Shown here in pieces: positions 55,993-64,000 of a DNA stretch of 64,000 bases. The stretch's first letter is position 1; the number at the start of each line of letters is the position of its first letter. The stretch lies in assembly GCA_017557425.1 (NCBI GenBank), contig JAFYYU010000018.1, positions 1 through 64,000 on the forward strand, in the 5' to 3' direction. The position numbers and the translations under genes were made by a program. The stretch comes from Muribaculaceae bacterium (lineage in GTDB: Bacteria > Bacteroidota > Bacteroidia > Bacteroidales > Muribaculaceae). The notes below the pieces were generated by a model. That model was not told the origin of the DNA. It did no database searches and was given only the letters and a program-made list of their open reading frames with translations.

Positions 55993-58251
55993 TCAATTAT
56001 GACCTATATTGAGCAGTATGTCAATGAGGTTGGTTACGTCGGCTATATTGATATTGTCATCGCCATTGATATCAGCAGCATATAGATTGATCCCGCCCGC
56101 GTCACCACTGAGCAGGTAATCGATGAGGCTGGTTACATCGGCGATATTCACGGCACCGTCATCATTTACATCGCCCGGTATGTACTCGGGCTCTTCGGGC
56201 TCCCAGGTTGCCTCATAGCACACCTCGACATCGTCAATATAACAATACTCTGAAGAGCTGCCCATGGTCTGCTGGAGGCGCAGCATGATGGGCTTATCGG
56301 TGGGCAGTGAGGTGACCGTTGCCACTGCTGTCGAACCGGCAGCGACATAGAAAGAGTAAGGATACTCATCTAGGCCTTTCCATCTGCTACCATTGTTGAT
56401 GGAGTATTTGGGTGTGATTTCCACGCCTGCCGACGTGGGATTGTAAATCGTGAAGCGAACAATTTTGGGAATCTTGTTGAGGTTTGCGTCGGTGTTGAAG
56501 TAGCTGCCGTTCCTCATGGCAACGACATGTCCGTTAACCACTTGTGCGGTATCCACCACAGAACAGTTATAGAAGTCCCAATTGGCATAGACACCGGCCA
56601 CGCCCCGTTCGTTAAGGGTAGCGCCCACGGGCATCTTCTCGAAATCCTCGATGGAGCTCTTGGAGTTATCTTTCACCACGTCAAAGGTGATGATGCTGTC
56701 GGCCTCGGCGATGTTGATGAAGGCAAATTGGCTCAACTTGCCGTCCCACGTGCGCATATTGGGTTGAGTAGAGTTGGTGATGGAGGTGACACCAGAGACG
56801 CCAGGGAAGGGGTCATTGTAGCTGTCGCTCATGCCGTTGAAATTGGCCCTGAGCAACTCATAGTAATTGTGGTTGGGATTCGCATTGACCAGATTATTTT
56901 CCCAGACATCGACATTGGTCGAGTCCACACGCCAAATGAGCATACCCGGGCCAGCCAGATTCTTGTCCCACTTGATGCGCTGGCGGTTCTCGATGATGAA
57001 ATACTCACTCTCGTTTGCGGTATTCAGGCGGTAACCTGCGTTGCTCTTTTCAAGCCCTGGCACGGTGATTGTGCCCTCTCCCTCGATGAGGGCGGGTTGT
57101 GCAAAGCCCAAGGCATAGCGCTCAAACAGACTGTAACCCACGGGGTTGCGTCCATTGTTGTTCTTGAAGCCGCTGGCCATGATGGACCAAGTCATGGGAT
57201 ACTGTCGGCTAATACCGCCGCTGCCTTCACTGTCGGTATCATAAAAATCGGGCAGTCCCAAGCAATGACTGAACTCGTGGCATATCGTGCCAATACCGGC
57301 GACGTTATTGTAAACGATGTAATACTCATTTTCTTCACCTATCATATTTGTCGAGCAGGCATAGAGGCTGAAATTCACACCATCGAGTACGGGAGACTCG
57401 GTGAAATCTTTCATGTGAGGCCACAGGTAGTCCCTGTTGTTGGCGCTATAGTCCGAGCCATGTCCGGCAACCAAAAAGAACACCATATCGACGGTGCCAT
57501 CCTCGTCAGTGTCATACCGGCTAAAGTCCACCTCTGGATCAAGTGCCTCAAGAGCAGCATAAAAAATGGAGTCGCAATTGAACTGGTGGGCGTCGGTGCA
57601 TGCAAAAGGCACATCCACAGGTCCCAGGATGTCAAAGTGCGGGTCAAACTGCTGGAAAGAGTTGTCATAGTAGTAATCTCGCACGCTGCCCATGCAGTCA
57701 ATCCTGGTTCCTGCTGGAAGCGTGAAACCATCGTAGTCATGGCCATTAATCATGGCTTCATAGAAGTCAAGTGGCGTATAATTTGAAGGCACGTAGTCGT
57801 CAAATTTCCGGTCGGTGTAGTTGATCAGAATGATCAAGCCACGGAACTTGCTGTAGTCCATGTGGCCGCCGTGGCCTATGCCGCGCAACAGGTCGTTGCG
57901 GTGATTGAGCATCTTGGTTCCACGCTCTACCATCGAACGGCTTCTCAGGCCCTTAGGCACGCTGGCAAGATACATCTGGTCGGCAGCGGTGCGGTAATCG
58001 CGCGCAATGCATTCACTTGCAACCAGACGGTCACCGTCAAGACGGGCATAGGTGTAATAACCTGCCTCGTTCTTGACCACGGTGTAGCCATCGCTGGTAG
58101 TCAGGTAATTCAAGAACTCATCACCATGTAGAATCAGGGTGATTGTGGTTCCATCGGGTTGGGTCACTCTCGCTGGAGTGGGGTCAGCAGGGGTCGCATG
58201 TGCCAATACACACATAACCCCCATCGCAAAAAGCAACAGAGTCTTTTTCAT
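55993..58251 (-). CDS. Secreted M6-family metallopeptidase with C-terminal dockerin (copy 3)
   Basis: The 752-aa protein has a signal peptide (MKKTLLLFAMGVMCVLAHA) and a conserved N-terminal domain (VTQPDGTTITLILHGDEF). A calcium-loop-like DTDEDGTVDMVFFLVAGHG follows, then the zinc site HEFSHCLGLPD (His325, Glu326, His329, Asp335). A jelly-roll-like C-terminal region precedes two dockerin-like repeats, DVNDDGAVNIADVTSLIDYL and DINGDDNINIADVTNLIDIL. M6 (immune inhibitor A-like) peptidases degrade extracellular proteins. It is the third of three tandem paralogues; the gap to the previous one is 82 bases. Confidence 0.9.
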   Translation of the reverse strand: MKKTLLLFAMGVMCVLAHATPADPTPARVTQPDGTTITLILHGDEFLNYLTTSDGYTVVKNEAGYYTYARLDGDRLVASECIARDYRTAADQMYLASVPKGLRSRSMVERGTKMLNHRNDLLRGIGHGGHMDYSKFRGLIILINYTDRKFDDYVPSNYTPLDFYEAMINGHDYDGFTLPAGTRIDCMGSVRDYYYDNSFQQFDPHFDILGPVDVPFACTDAHQFNCDSIFYAALEALDPEVDFSRYDTDEDGTVDMVFFLVAGHGSDYSANNRDYLWPHMKDFTESPVLDGVNFSLYACSTNMIGEENEYYIVYNNVAGIGTICHEFSHCLGLPDFYDTDSEGSGGISRQYPMTWSIMASGFKNNNGRNPVGYSLFERYALGFAQPALIEGEGTITVPGLEKSNAGYRLNTANESEYFIIENRQRIKWDKNLAGPGMLIWRVDSTNVDVWENNLVNANPNHNYYELLRANFNGMSDSYNDPFPGVSGVTSITNSTQPNMRTWDGKLSQFAFINIAEADSIITFDVVKDNSKSSIEDFEKMPVGATLNERGVAGVYANWDFYNCSVVDTAQVVNGHVVAMRNGSYFNTDANLNKIPKIVRFTIYNPTSAGVEITPKYSINNGSRWKGLDEYPYSFYVAAGSTAVATVTSLPTDKPIMLRLQQTMGSSSEYCYIDDVEVCYEATWEPEEPEYIPGDVNDDGAVNIADVTSLIDYLLSGDAGGINLYAADINGDDNINIADVTNLIDILLNIGHN

Positions 58252-58333
58252 AGCCTTAAGTATTAGTCAGTTAATAACTATAAAGTAAAAAACTAGTTAA
58301 ACAAGTTTATTATTCTTATATTTTATGATAGTT

Positions 58334-60544
58334 TTAATCTAATATCAGTGCAATGATTGCGTTCACATCGGCAATGTTCACCTCACCGTCACCGTTAATA
58401 TCACCCGCCGGATTATTCTCACCATTCAGGATGTAGCCAACCACTGCATTCACGTCGGCGATATTAACTTCTCCGTCCTCGTTCACATCACCCTTAAGAG
58501 GCCATTCCTCCTCATAAAACAGCTGAATGTTGTCCAAATAGCAATAGACGCGGGTACTGCCTGCCGTCTGGTTAATACGGAGCATGATGGGATCGGTGGT
58601 GGGCAACATCAAGAGGACGGAATGGGACGACTTGGCTTCGACCGTGAGGATATTGTCACCCTGATCGGTCCACGTCTCGCCTCCATCCAACGAATAAGTA
58701 AACTTGAAGTTTGCCCTGGTTGTAGTGGGGTTATAGACCACGTAACGCACGGCATAGGGCTTTTGCGTCAGGGGCTTGGAGGTAGTCACCATGCTGGGAG
58801 TCTTCATGGCGACGGCACGCATGCCGTCACACTTGCCCTCGCCCGGCTCAACGACACTACACCTGGTGAAATCCCAGTTGCAGTAAGCACCACGCACATT
58901 CTTGGCATCCACATCATCGGTCACGGGAATATTCTCAAAATCCTCGATAACGTTCTGAATAGAGGAGCTGCTCTTCAATCGGAAGAAGATGTTGTTGCCC
59001 TCTTCGGCGATATCCATGATCGAGAAATCATTGAACGATTTGTCCCAAGTGAGCAGACTGGGGGTGGTGAAGTTGGTAATCGAGGTAACACCTGCAGAAC
59101 CGGGGAACGGGTCATATTCCGAATCCCGCCCCATGTAATTGGCCCTCAAGAGCTCGTAATACATATGGTTGGGGTTGCAGTTGACCGTATTTTGCCACCA
59201 CACGTTCACATTGCTGGAATCGACACGGGCCACCATCATGCCATGGCCAGGAAGGAACTTATCCCACTTGCCGGCCTGGCGGTTCTCAATGAGGAAGAAT
59301 TCGTTCTCATTAGGCGTGTTCAATCGGTAGCCGAGGTTGCTCTCGTCGAGCGGCTGCATGATGTAATTGTCTTCTTCCTCTAACAGCACAGGTGTAGTAA
59401 AGCCCAGGGCATAGCGTTCATACAGGCTATAGCCCACAGGATTGCGGCCATAGTTATCGCCGCTGCCGCCGGCCATGATTGACCAATTACCGGGGTTGCG
59501 GCTCTCACCACCGCTGCCGTCATAGTCAGTATCATACAGGTCAGGCAGGCCCAATACATGTCCGAACTCGTGGCAGAAGGTGCCGATGCCGTTCACGCTG
59601 TAGTAATTGGGATATCCTTCCCAACCGGCAATTTCGGTCGAGCAGGCATACAGGCCAAAGTTCACGCCATCGAGAGCAGGAGACCAATACAGGTAGTACA
59701 TGTGAGGCCACAGGTAGTTATCATCATTACCGCCGTAGTTGGCCGAGAAACCCGCTACCAGGAAGAACACCATGTCCACATATCCATCGCCATCGGTATC
59801 GTAATCGCTATAGTCGATGTCGTCATCAAGAGCGGCCAGAGCGGCATTGAAGATTTCGTCGGCGCGATTGGTGCTCTGGGGATAGCGGCACGAATACGGC
59901 ACATCAACGGGACCCACCACGTCAAAGTGCGGGTCAAAAATGTGATTGGAGTTATCGTAAAAGTAGTCGCGGACACTACCAGTCATGCGAACTGGACGGT
60001 TGTTGAGCGTGTAACCCGTGTAATCGTGGGTGTTGACCATGTCATCATAGAAGGCGTCGGGCTCGGGCATCGAGAATTTCTTGTCGGTGTAGTTGACCAG
60101 GATGATCAGGCCGCGGAAGTTTTCATAATCCATCAATCCGTCGGCACCCACACGGCGCATGGCACTGTTTCGGCTCCCCAGCATCTGGTTGCCGCTCCTT
60201 AACAGTTGTTTGTCTTTTAGCCCTTTGGGGGTCACGGCCAGGGCTGCCAAATCGGCTGCAGAGCGGTGCGACGGGTCGCGGGCGATGCGGTCGCCTGCCA
60301 CCAATCGGTCGCCGTCAAGCCTGGCATAGGTATAGAAACCTGCGGCATTTTTCAGGACCGTATAACCGTCAACCGTGGTTGTGAAGTGGAAGAACTCGTC
60401 ACCATGCAGGGTAATGGTGAGCCTGGTACCGTCAGGCTGCGTAACTTGAATTGGCATGTTGTCAGCGGGGACAGCTTGCACAGCAAGGCAAAACAGTCCC
60501 AAAAAGAACGACAAGATGAAATTTCTCATAACTTTACTATACAT
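58334..60544 (-). CDS. Secreted M6-family metallopeptidase with C-terminal dockerin (copy 2)
   Basis: The 736-aa protein has the same layout as its neighbours: a signal peptide (the better start is Met6, MRNFILSFFLGLFCLAVQA), the VTQPDGTRLTITLHGDEF domain, DTDGDGYVDMVFFLVAG, and the zinc site HEFGHVLGLPD (His325, Glu326, His329). The beta-rich region is followed by dockerin-like repeats DVNEDGEVNIADVNAVVGYI and DINGDGEVNIADVNAIIALI at the very end. It starts only ten bases after copy 1 ends, so the two are one transcript. Confidence 0.9.
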   Translation of the reverse strand: MYSKVMRNFILSFFLGLFCLAVQAVPADNMPIQVTQPDGTRLTITLHGDEFFHFTTTVDGYTVLKNAAGFYTYARLDGDRLVAGDRIARDPSHRSAADLAALAVTPKGLKDKQLLRSGNQMLGSRNSAMRRVGADGLMDYENFRGLIILVNYTDKKFSMPEPDAFYDDMVNTHDYTGYTLNNRPVRMTGSVRDYFYDNSNHIFDPHFDVVGPVDVPYSCRYPQSTNRADEIFNAALAALDDDIDYSDYDTDGDGYVDMVFFLVAGFSANYGGNDDNYLWPHMYYLYWSPALDGVNFGLYACSTEIAGWEGYPNYYSVNGIGTFCHEFGHVLGLPDLYDTDYDGSGGESRNPGNWSIMAGGSGDNYGRNPVGYSLYERYALGFTTPVLLEEEDNYIMQPLDESNLGYRLNTPNENEFFLIENRQAGKWDKFLPGHGMMVARVDSSNVNVWWQNTVNCNPNHMYYELLRANYMGRDSEYDPFPGSAGVTSITNFTTPSLLTWDKSFNDFSIMDIAEEGNNIFFRLKSSSSIQNVIEDFENIPVTDDVDAKNVRGAYCNWDFTRCSVVEPGEGKCDGMRAVAMKTPSMVTTSKPLTQKPYAVRYVVYNPTTTRANFKFTYSLDGGETWTDQGDNILTVEAKSSHSVLLMLPTTDPIMLRINQTAGSTRVYCYLDNIQLFYEEEWPLKGDVNEDGEVNIADVNAVVGYILNGENNPAGDINGDGEVNIADVNAIIALILD

Positions 60545-60554
60545 TCAAAAGTGT

Positions 60555-62822
60555 TCAACTGTTCAAAATAATGTCGATGATGGCATTGACATCGGCAATG
60601 TTCACCTCACTGTCACCATTCACATCGGCACGAGGGAATAATTCGAGGTAATCAAGATCTCTCAAAATAATGTCGATAATGACATTGACATCGGCAATGT
60701 TCACCTCATCGTCCCCGTTCACGTCGCCCGTATTAGTAGGCGCAGGGCCGCCAGCCTCACCCGTATAATAGAAAACCAGGTTATCCACATAATTGGCCAC
60801 ATTCTTGTTACCGGCCCGCTGATAGATTCGGAAACGGGCGGGTTGCGTGTTATTGAGGTCCAACAACCAATACAATCTGCTCTGGCTTTTTCCAGGGGCA
60901 TCGGCAGCGTCGGCTCCTTTAGAACTGGGAGCAATCACCCAGACGGGATTGCCTTCGGCATCGTTCTCCACCGAGTATTCCAATGAATACTTGGCATCAG
61001 TCGAAGACATGTTGAACACGGTCATTTCGGCCATGTAGATATTGTAATAGACCGGTGTGGTGCTGTAGAACAGGCTCGGTGTCTTTGTCATCACGCTGTT
61101 TAGACCAATGGCCTTATCCTCGCCTGGTGCGCGTACACCCGTCTTGTTGAATGACCAAGATGCAAAGCGTCCTTCAACGTTCTGGTCGGTCGTACCCGTT
61201 GAGACAGGCATGGTTTCGAAGTCCTCGACCAGGGCCGTAATCTCGTTTTCTCTCATCACATTGAAGGTGATGACATTATTATTCTCCTTGATGGCCAAAA
61301 TATTAAACTCATTCTCATAGCCGCCCCATGTGAGAAGGCTGGGAGCAGTATTATTGGTAAGCATGATATTGCCGGTTAAACCAGGGAAGGGGTCACTCGC
61401 CAGATCCCCATACGAGTTATTGCCGGCACGCAACAACTCGAAATAGTTATGCTCAGGGTTGCAGTTCACCTTGTTTCTGTTCCAGATACTCACGTTGGTG
61501 CTGTCCACGCGGGTCACCAGCATGCCATGACCTGGCAGATTGGAGTCCCAACCCGTCTTTTGGCGGTTCTCAATGGTAAAGAACTCGTTCTCGACAGGTG
61601 TGCGCAGGATGTAGCCCTCACGTGACGTGTTCACGGGGTTGAGCGTGTAGGTTCCCGACTGGGTGATGGTGATGGGGGTGGCCCATCCCAGGGCATAACG
61701 TTCATAGAAAGTGTAGCCCACCGGACTGCGGCCATAGTTATAGTCAGATCCGCCAGCCATCACGTCCCATCCGCCCGGGTCATGGCTTTGACCGCCGCCT
61801 TCCTCATAGTCGGTATCGTAAAAATCAGGAAGGCCCAACACATGGGAGAACTCATGGGCGACAGTACCGATGCCTTCAACAGTCACCGTGCTTGGGGTGC
61901 TCTCAAAGCCAAAGAGCTCGGTCGAACAGGCATAGCCGTCGAGTTTCTTGTTGTCAAAATAACGGTTGAGGGAACTCAGATTGGATGCATGGGGCCAAAG
62001 GTAGCCCTCATTATTACCCGAGAAGCTGGAAGCATAACCGGCCACCAAGAAATAGACCATGTCAATCTTCCCGTCATTATTGTTGTCATAATTAGTGAAA
62101 TCGACCTCCTCGTTAGCAGCTTTCAACGCATTTACGAATAAGGTGGTTGACAGACTCTGGCACTGGTTGGAGCGTGCCTGGGTGTTATTGGAGCCGTAGG
62201 TGGCACGATAAGGGCCATATACATCAAACGGGGGGCGAAACGCACCATTGGACTGATCGCTGAAATAATCGCGGACACTGCCGGGACAGCTCACATCACG
62301 ATCGGTGACGGGGTCATGGAAGCCCGTTAATCCCTCGCTGCTGAACATCTGGGTGTAAAAGGCCTTGGGGTCGTCGGCAGCGAAATGCTGATTGTAGAAG
62401 TCAACCAGTATCACCAGACCGCGGAAGTTGTCCAGGTCAAAGCTGGACAGGTCAATCTGGCGCCTGGCGCGGAGCAGGTGCCCCTGTGCGACGGCCGTCT
62501 CATCGACGAGACGCTTGGGCATAGCTGCCAAGAATTCCACCTCGGCCGCCCCGCGGTCACGGACATCGTGAGCAAGCATGCTGGTCGGCTCGAGCGTCAT
62601 GCCGTCGCGCTTGGCATACACGTAAGCGCCGGCATCATTCAACATGATTGTATAACCGTCGGTGGTGGTATTGAAGTGATAGAACTCGTCACCCACAAGG
62701 CAGACCGACAACATTGAGCCGTCAGGTTGAGGCATCAACACCGAGCCGCGATGGGCGGGATTGGCAGCGGCGTTGAAGCACATCAACACTGCCAGCAACA
62801 GTAGGGAAGATAATTTTCTCAT
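60555..62822 (-). CDS. Secreted M6-family metallopeptidase with C-terminal dockerin (copy 1)
   Basis: The 755-aa protein opens the peptidase cluster. It has a signal peptide (MRKLSSLLLLAVLMCFNAAA), MPQPDGSMLSVCLVGDEF, the calcium-loop-like DNNNDGKIDMVYFLVAG and the zinc site HEFSHVLGLPD (His323, Glu324, His327). It ends with dockerin-like repeats DVNGDDEVNIADVNVIIDII and DVNGDSEVNIADVNAIIDII. It is more diverged from copies 2 and 3 in its N-terminal third than they are from each other. Promoter candidate at 62931. Confidence 0.9.
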   Translation of the reverse strand: MRKLSSLLLLAVLMCFNAAANPAHRGSVLMPQPDGSMLSVCLVGDEFYHFNTTTDGYTIMLNDAGAYVYAKRDGMTLEPTSMLAHDVRDRGAAEVEFLAAMPKRLVDETAVAQGHLLRARRQIDLSSFDLDNFRGLVILVDFYNQHFAADDPKAFYTQMFSSEGLTGFHDPVTDRDVSCPGSVRDYFSDQSNGAFRPPFDVYGPYRATYGSNNTQARSNQCQSLSTTLFVNALKAANEEVDFTNYDNNNDGKIDMVYFLVAGYASSFSGNNEGYLWPHASNLSSLNRYFDNKKLDGYACSTELFGFESTPSTVTVEGIGTVAHEFSHVLGLPDFYDTDYEEGGGQSHDPGGWDVMAGGSDYNYGRSPVGYTFYERYALGWATPITITQSGTYTLNPVNTSREGYILRTPVENEFFTIENRQKTGWDSNLPGHGMLVTRVDSTNVSIWNRNKVNCNPEHNYFELLRAGNNSYGDLASDPFPGLTGNIMLTNNTAPSLLTWGGYENEFNILAIKENNNVITFNVMRENEITALVEDFETMPVSTGTTDQNVEGRFASWSFNKTGVRAPGEDKAIGLNSVMTKTPSLFYSTTPVYYNIYMAEMTVFNMSSTDAKYSLEYSVENDAEGNPVWVIAPSSKGADAADAPGKSQSRLYWLLDLNNTQPARFRIYQRAGNKNVANYVDNLVFYYTGEAGGPAPTNTGDVNGDDEVNIADVNVIIDIILRDLDYLELFPRADVNGDSEVNIADVNAIIDIILNS

Positions 62823-62930
62823 CTATATTAAGTTTATTTCAGTTTTTGGCTGGTTTTCACAACAAGTATTACAGCATGAGCCTGTTTGCACTTAGTTGGT
62901 TGACTTTCCTTTTCAAGGAATTGCAGCCTG

Positions 62931-62938
62931 CAAATTTA
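62931..62938 (-). promoter_or_regulatory. Promoter of the M6 peptidase operon (-7 TAAATTTG)
   Basis: The minus strand reads TAAATTTG, 108 bases before copy 1. The nearest TTTG is 16 bases away, shorter than ideal. Confidence 0.5.
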
Positions 62939-62978
62939 AGTCATTTTTTTATAGCAAAGGCTTAATTAATGGTTAAAA

Positions 62979-63039
62979 ATTTGCGTAAGCCTAATGCCAT
63001 GATGCTTACATCGATGGCTGAGGCGCCACCAAATTTATT
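62979..63039. repeat. Diverged fourth copy of the parA-upstream hairpin unit
   Basis: Aligns without gaps over 61 bases (about two thirds identical) to the units at 63253. Pairing is kept by compensatory changes: GCCAT/ATGGC replaces AACCAT/ATGGTT, GATG/CATC replaces AAAT/ATTT, and ATTT/AAAT replaces the outer AACATC/GATGTT. Confidence 0.65.
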
Positions 63040-63252
63040 CAAATATTGCCATTATCAGCCATTTTGCATCATCCTAGCAGCCTGATTCTGATCATTGAAG
63101 CATTATGTGGAACTTGTGTTAGGGTGCCCTAAAGGGTCAAAATGGAATGTTCCACGATTTATTAACAATTATGTTAAGTTTTAAACAATTCACCGATTTT
63201 AACGGAGTTTTTAGCTATTCTTAGAGTAAAAAATTGTTCCTTTGTAGTCGTG

Positions 63253-63446
63253 AAACATCGCAAAAGCCGAAAACCATGAAATTTATTTCGATGGTTGAGG
63301 CGCAACAGATGTTATTAAAACATCGCAAAAGCCGAAAACCATGAAATTTATTTCGATGGTTGAGGCGCATCAGATGTTATTAAAACATCGCAGAAGCCGA
63401 AAACCATGAAATTTATTTCGATGGTTGAGGTTTTGCCGATGTTATT
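63253..63446. repeat. Tandem array of three 65-bp hairpin units upstream of parA
   Basis: Units start at 63253, 63318 and 63383 and are nearly identical. Each folds as a nested imperfect palindrome: AACATC/GATGTT outside, then GC/GC, GCC/GGC, AACCAT/ATGGTT and AAAT/ATTT, with small symmetric internal loops. The third unit differs in the loop before the outer 3' arm. The region 63040-63252 between this array and the diverged unit holds no gene. Confidence 0.9.
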
Positions 63447-63470
63447 TATGACTGATAAGAACACCTATTC

Positions 63471-64000
63471 ATGGGAAAGATAATAGCAATAGCCAACCAA
63501 AAGGGCGGTGTGGGCAAAACCACTACCGCCATCAACCTGTCGGCGGCATTGGCCGCCAGCGGACAGCGTGTCCTGCTCATCGATGCCGACCCTCAGGCTA
63601 ACGCCACATCGGGCTTGGGCATTGAGACTAAAGACATGTCCTCTACCATCTATGAATGCCTGGTAGACGACTACCCCATACGCAGCGCGATCATCGATAC
63701 CAACGTTGAGGGCCTCAGGCTGCTGGGGTCGCGCATAGACCTCGTGGGGGCCGAGCTTGAACTTGTGGAGAAGTCGGGACGTGAGCGCGTGCTGGGCAAA
63801 GCACTGCAAGAGGTAAAGGACGACTATGACTACATCATCATCGACTGCAGTCCGTCGCTGGGACTGATTACAGTCAACGCCCTGACCGCTGCCCACAGTG
63901 TCATCATCCCGGTACAGGCCGAGTACTTTGCTCTGGAGGGCATCAGTAAGCTGCTCAACACCATCCGCATCATCAAGGCCAAGCTCAACGCAGGCCTGCG
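63471..64000 (+). CDS. parA: ParA/Soj chromosome-partition ATPase, 3' end outside the window
   Basis: The first 176 codons match ParA/Soj: [20 protein letters not shown] with the deviant Walker A KGGVGKTT (residues 10-17), [15 protein letters not shown] (Walker A'), [18 protein letters not shown] (Walker B) and [13 protein letters not shown]. ParA ATP-dependently moves origin regions or plasmids with ParB. There is no N-terminal helix-turn-helix, so it is of the chromosomal (Soj) or short plasmid (type Ib) form. parB is expected next, beyond the window. The hairpin array lies 24 bases upstream; a near-consensus box TTCCTTTG at about 63236 would place the array in the parA leader RNA. Confidence 0.95.

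Follow-up and report, generated by a model that had tools for sequence, protein, structure and literature searches.

The three tandem hairpin units that stand directly before parA in a Muribaculaceae bacterium belong, judged by sequence and fold, to a family of non-coding DNA hairpins scattered over Bacteroidales. The window referred to below is the whole stretch of 64,000 nucleotides that was analysed (contig JAFYYU010000018.1, positions 1 to 64,000). Our preferred reading, which we hold to be probable, is that each unit is one copy of a non-coding hairpin that is dispersed and mobile and would be mobilised in trans as a REP-like single strand. The family is apparently undescribed: the PMC literature searches returned no description of it, and the core-string matches listed there concern, by title, other subjects. 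Dispersed mobile palindromes are a known kind of element, and the traits of this one are unusual.

In the window, the array consists of three abutting units on the + strand, located by repeat search and folding at 63253-63317, 63318-63382 and 63383-63447, the last with a diverged right side. A separate and diverged fourth unit, nearer to the family consensus, lies on the same strand at 62976-63040. All four were grouped as one repeat family, with identities of 98% for the first two units, 88% for the third and 69% for the fourth, and TRF reported the three abutting units as a 65-bp tandem array. Every unit folded on the + strand into a nested imperfect hairpin of -20.7 to -24.6 kcal/mol with z-scores of -4.2 to -5.9, and none of 200 shuffles was equally stable. 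The three tandem 65-nt nested palindromes that a sequence-only reading of this DNA had described are thus borne out. That reading had also noticed a fourth copy that keeps the same stems through paired changes, and these changes were found in the middle stem (ACC/GGT to GCC/GGC), the terminal stem (AAAT/ATTT to GATG/CATC) and the outer stem (AACATC/GATGTT to AAATTT/AAATTT), with a single middle-stem pair broken (A-T to T-T); the start of this unit had to be moved from 62979 to 62976.

A covariance model built from the four units matched 28 places in the source genome at E<=10. With a second model, made from 22 matches, at least 43 matches were obtained at E<=1 on 15 of the 24 contigs, a lower bound, as 150 of 951 candidates were scored. 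The members of two pairs of loci (L011/L012 and L034/L035) have identical flanks within each pair and may each represent one copy, and we put the total for the source genome at about 40 copies. Of 25 genomes searched at E<=0.001, 15 of the 16 belonging to the genus carried 9 to 86 copies each, the exception being G004, where the covariance search found none; outside the genus, one of nine genomes had four weak copies. An exact pattern on two conserved stretches, with a fixed second stem and unconstrained other stems, had at least 118 matches in a named genome collection. Among the 80 matches listed, 78 came from what we take, from titles and assumed taxonomy, to be Bacteroidales, and the model matched at E<=0.001 in 77 of these 78 and in neither of the two others. 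The same pattern had only two matches in a viral collection, and a viral origin was set aside. Rfam contained no family that reached its gathering score for the 20 loci scanned, and its three matches in window positions 62500-64000 were all far below this score. At L009 and L043 (1501-1565), a copy apparently lies inside an open reading frame, at the same place in two species. A young, near-identical subfamily was seen at L278, L279, L281-L287 and L297 in G009, which has 11 such copies, and at L315, L316 and L319 in G007, whose members differ from those of G009 by a compensated outer-stem pair. Most of these copies are preceded by a second hairpin, CCGTGC..GCACGG, and some lie at contig ends; the G009 copies share longer flanks and may therefore have been carried along within a larger repeat.

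The consensus element is about 65-90 nt long and begins on the left with AAA and the outer stem, followed by GTGCAAG, which is mostly unpaired, and a GCC/GGC stem. The core is formed by a bulged middle stem and a terminal stem of variable length, and the right side by GAGGCGCCGCC, which is partly unpaired, the outer stem and ATCC. We distinguished subtypes A/B, whose core is short and whose arms resemble AAAATTTG, from C/D, with AAAATTAG or AAAG(A/G)TAG as left arm; in C/D the terminal stems are often longer and another small hairpin follows on the right. Among 108 distinct named copies, two-sided changes occurred at all 18 modelled pairs, 96.4% of the cells were paired, and the covariation score was 0.639 compared to 0.184 after shuffling and at most 0.105 with slid partners, values from an alignment that was fitted to the model and leans towards its structure. 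When 253 distinct copies were thinned to 124 representatives with identities below 85%, the outer left arm occurred in 47 versions, a few of them gapped. In these representatives, G.T pairs outnumbered A.C pairs by 44 to 18 (p 6.5e-4), with counts in the three alignments taken singly of 26 versus 19, 48 versus 11 and 19 versus 11, only the second being significant. This excess suggests that the + strand is the folding strand, rather than that both strands alike must fold. It also makes plausible the earlier claim that the fold itself is selected, for which covariation alone is no proof, since template switching between the arms of an inverted repeat gives paired changes as well. As a general warning, an intergenic palindrome may covary strongly and yet be neither a functional RNA nor a partition site.

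For an insertion test, the 290 bp to the left of 12 of the roughly 40 source copies were searched in five relatives. Orthologues were found for 11 of the 12, giving 49 readable sites and one more that was cut by a contig end. By an automatic rule, 41 of the 49 had no copy at the projected place and eight had one; nine may be the fairer number, because at relA in G009 (L114) a copy is, by eye, interrupted by another. Clean empty and filled junctions were found at npdA, frr, lon, phoH and mreB (these names, like relA, ushA, hydG-like and glycosyltransferase elsewhere in this text, are what we presume from our own reading of the translations), and in the empty relatives host sequence runs unbroken past the junction. 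Since orthologous promoters are empty in relatives, we regard the copies as insertions, the polymorphism being one between species in all comparisons. The occupied orthologous sites hold, by eye, other subtypes than the source copy, so that the same promoters seem to have been struck more than once. Copies also follow one another directly: of 186 unique copies, 14 same-strand pairs abut without spacer. An array of three units is also present on a contig of Prevotellamassilia timonensis (L205). The sole regular end repeat of A/B copies is AAA, and the flank after TATNN begins with AA in 50 and with AAA in 35 of 60 non-tandem copies. No significant duplication of the two bases before the target, as in a classical target duplication, was seen (8 of the 60 versus 4.7 expected, p 0.08). 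By eye, end repeats of 4-7 nt occur in six source copies and repeats of 11-24 nt in a few; some of the longer ones are probably partial tandem units. At the relA promoter of G009 (L114, about 1790-1950), another hairpin subfamily, AAATTCCGATTAAGCGA..GGAATTTATC, was seen by eye nested in a C-type copy.

About half of the copies sit, by sequence, one way round against promoter -7 boxes. The Bacteroides -7 consensus is given as TAnnTTTG (PMC7366714). Its reverse, CAAAnnTA, stands at the left end in 39 of the 71 copies counted from the genus and in 39 of the 97 from the named collection, and at the mirrored right position in none of either set; copies with a tandem left neighbour (5 of 76 genus and 12 of 109 named) were left out of these totals, as was one whose flank was short. 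The box overlaps the left arm in 28 of the genus copies and lies outside it in 11. In the named set all 39 overlap, and these boxes could in principle belong to the element. A box is also present in empty orthologues, which speaks for a host box: it lies within 45 nt in 24 of the 41 empty sites, 10-12 nt from the projected junction in 14, and exactly at the arm position in the empty orthologues of mreB. Based on crude open reading frames, the direction of transcription leads away from the element for 36 of 48 left genes and 26 of 48 right genes, the 48 being those of 70 rows with both neighbours and no overlapping open reading frame. We also considered that the element, on splitting a promoter, might give it back a -33 box, and abandoned this because the spacing is, by eye, inconsistent.

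The parA gene starts at 63471 on the + strand, 23 nt after the end of the array, and runs on beyond the window (63471-63998 within it); its product is an AAA_31/ParA ATPase (Pfam, E 2.4e-70). From alignment with related species, the likely -7 box of the parA promoter is TTCCTTTG at 63237-63244 (+ strand), one base off TAnnTTTG and 8 nt before unit 1. The array would lie between this presumed promoter and the start codon, and would then be transcribed as three hairpins. Overlapping its left edge is CGTGAAACAT (63249-63258, + strand), whose AAACAT forms the outer left arm of unit 1 and which the leaders of relatives identify as host sequence, as 8 of 15 relatives have it with no element there, one of them with AAACAA. 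The element-free host leader reads CGTGAAACA[T/A]TT in these 8 of 15, and by eye CGTGAAACATTT, or nearly so, in G003, G004, G005, G007, G008, G012, G013 and G014. All 16 genus genomes have a parA orthologue, and full units precede it in the source genome only. At this position, G002 has a degenerate copy that scores 17.1 bits, and in G009 a remnant of 26 nt is left. Intact units in the parA leader were found in three species, three in the source genome and two each in L153 and L200, which are MAGs with ParA proteins 92.6% and 90.9% identical; both MAGs were found through the element itself and do not raise the rate of occupied parA sites. Conservation of full units upstream of parA, which the sequence-only reading had suggested as a check, was not found beyond the source genome and these two MAGs. 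The element starts exactly at host AAACA in the source genome, L153, L200 and G002. Its right arm is fully complementary to AAACA in the source units and the first L153 unit, and mismatched in L200 and G002; the commonest right arm of A/B copies, CAAATTT, is unlike that of the parA-leader copies. The array is best read from these leaders as an old insertion at CGTG|AAACAT that appears intact in three species, decayed in two and missing from most others. No partition role would be needed for it, and at most it would provide parA mRNA with three strong 5' hairpins.

At other genes too (mreB, relA, ushA, hydG-like and glycosyltransferase genes), C/D copies have their left arm where empty relatives also have a -7 box. 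The two variable bases of the box match those of the empty relatives at mreB and at relA in G009, and differ from them at hydG-like in G009 and relA in G007. The outer left arm can thus be host sequence with the right arm complementary to it, which could come about either by pairing-guided insertion or by template switching. In the preferred mechanism, the single-stranded + strand would fold into the hairpin, and an enzyme acting in trans would recognise it through GTGCAAG on the left and GAGGCGCCGCC on the right. The hairpin would be joined 3' of an A-rich host target, which would then serve as the outer left arm, with the right arm complementary to it. The end of an existing copy would also offer a suitable target, and head-to-tail arrays would follow from this. 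In the case of parA, insertion of an ancestral copy into the leader at CGTG|AAACAT, close to where transcription presumably starts, would have been followed by its multiplication to three units. A further step that we put forward tentatively is that the hairpin homes to promoters, its right arm being a changeable guide that pairs, on one strand, with an exposed -7 box or another A-rich target. The host target would become the other half of the stem, so that the stem would vary by site and still pair, and across Bacteroidales the element would come to lie immediately upstream of sigma-ABfr -7 boxes. This idea draws on the pre-existing host box at the place of the arm in empty orthologues and on the element-free AAACAT at parA. 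If the outer arms do match targets, the family would be a small model of how base pairing can select a target when no separate guide RNA is involved.

Other explanations were weighed against a mobile hairpin. The family could be old and now immobile, with slippage and template switching at quasipalindromes behind its spread and with switching, instead of selection, making the paired changes. Template switching is described as equalising the arms of inverted repeats and inverting their spacers (PMC8604942), the end repeats vary in length, arrays keep a perfect unit period, the near-identical G009 copies share longer flanks, and the parA-leader segment of G006 resembles, by eye, an inverted remnant. 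Homogenisation should, however, erase the unpaired stretches, which are conserved in some 250 distinct copies across the order, and neither the excess of G.T over A.C nor the specific placement and orientation against -7 boxes favours this account, so we consider it unlikely. We give still less credit to a regulatory DNA or RNA module that is kept for the adjacent promoter, for instance as an operator or a leader read by a factor. Its position is fixed against -7 boxes, and the same promoters carry other subtypes (by eye) in relatives at 8 of 49 sites, which exceeds our own rough estimate of the expectation, about 3% from 86 copies among some 2,500 genes. Against this stand the 41 of 49 orthologous sites of the same genes that have no copy, adjacent genes that, in our reading of their translations, share no pathway, and one copy apparently inside an open reading frame.

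Among the possible roles listed by the sequence-only reading was that of a repeated, centromere-like site for ParB, as in type Ib partition. Tandem dyad repeats do stand directly before parA in three species, but at the remaining parA loci that were examined the array is missing or degraded, full units occur at one of 16 parA loci of the genus, and dozens of copies, about 40, lie elsewhere in the source genome. In addition, a perfect parS match, TGTTTCACGTGGAACA, is located on another contig of this genome (C3), with a second match, one mismatch off, 1.07 kb away. Such paired matches, 1.06-1.11 kb apart, were present in four of seven genomes searched (the source genome, G002, G007 and G012), while G009, also among the seven, had no parS match. 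When one mismatch was permitted, the reversed parS control matched at least as often in every genome, so the argument lies in the repeated spacing and not in the count. As the array at parA is not conserved and parS matches lie elsewhere, the array is probably not a conserved partition site, and we regard the centromere proposal as highly improbable. The same reading had held that units occurring at random, with no link to parA and no preserved pairing, would speak against its proposals; the link to parA did fall away, while the pairing was kept. Of its options, dispersal and empty orthologous sites favour the mobile palindromic element.

No mobilising enzyme for the hairpin was identified among the Y1 transposases examined. 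Y1 transposases occur in 15 of the 16 genus genomes with no clear relation to copy number: G004 has Y1 and no elements, and G013 has 18 elements and no Y1 that we could find. For 20 of 48 Y1 matches the flanks were searched, to 1.5 kb or less either way, and no element was found, the sole hit being at chance level (16.9 bits). A Y1 enzyme as flanking mobiliser was discarded on these grounds, and Y1 may act in trans. The 17 Y1 genes that were read have, by eye, inverted repeats of other sequence around them, and their proteins carry the signature Y---Q--HH and not YIH[QN]NP. At L069, L070, L078 and other Y1 loci, transposases with Y---Q--HH were seen by eye with their own, different palindromes. 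IS608-like elements show a replication-strand bias; copies of the hairpin are mixed in orientation within single contigs, such as C13, so that no strict bias of this type applies.

Several known systems share some of these traits. Integron attC sites have a variable sequence with a conserved, strand-specific fold, unpaired bases and a variable terminal stem, and carry an R-box (RYYYAAC/GTTRRRY) in the outer stem. The hairpin family is alike in its variable sequence, conserved fold, unpaired bases and variable terminal stem; in contrast, its outer stem contains no fixed R-box, with 47 left arms in 124 representatives and arms such as AAATTT, AAATTA, AAGATA, AAGGTA, AACATC and many others. REP/BIME sequences, mobilised by RAYT (TnpA-REP) transposases, likewise are dispersed, intergenic imperfect palindromes that form arrays, and presumably fold on one strand as substrate. 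Many dispersed palindromes were found here also, intergenic by crude open reading frames, with part of the 70 rows overlapping one. REP pairing is described as being kept by complementary changes (PMC2817692), as in the hairpin family. The hairpins differ from REPs in their length (about 65-90 nt versus the 20-40 nt given in PMC3733652), in the lack, by eye, of a constant GTAG/CGTC foot, in the free sequence of their outer stem, and in that no Y1 gene was flanked by copies at the 20 of 48 matches tested. In Bacteroidetes, Y1 genes of subclass 2.6 are described as flanked by 'atypical secondary structures' that are also copied elsewhere in the genome (PMC6006769). Compared by description only, these are alike in host group and in being atypical hairpins with further copies, and unlike in that no Y1 gene was seen flanked by the hairpins at the loci tested here and in that the 17 Y1 proteins read carry Y---Q--HH, the signature named for subclass 1.2 (PMC6006769). 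Small, non-coding dispersed repeats of the same order are BrickBuilt of P. gingivalis, a MITE or dispersed repeat (PMC5771137), and PINSR of P. intermedia, described as 188 bp and without terminal inverted repeats (PMC4755523). Unlike such MITEs and repeats, the hairpin family covaries and has no conserved terminal repeats, since its arms pair and differ in sequence between copies, and apparently no target duplication of fixed length; its insertion polymorphism, with empty sites, was seen between species. Some 250 distinct copies were collected of what would be an apparently undescribed set of small mobile hairpins in Bacteroidales, one with clear empty sites and a relation to promoters.

Some features near parA were noted in passing. 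Two split parS-like half-sites, TGTTCCACG (63148-63156) and CGTGAAACA (63249-63257), flank the parA promoter about 90 bp apart, and one or both recur before parA in several relatives. By eye, TTATTAACA occurs at window positions 63159-63167, and TTATTAACA, TTATCAACA or TTATGCACA before parA in several relatives; we take these to be DnaA-box-like words, perhaps connected with DnaA control or an origin. At window positions 55993-62822, three similar secreted-looking proteins are encoded in a row, and the two that were tested contain M6 peptidase and dockerin domains.
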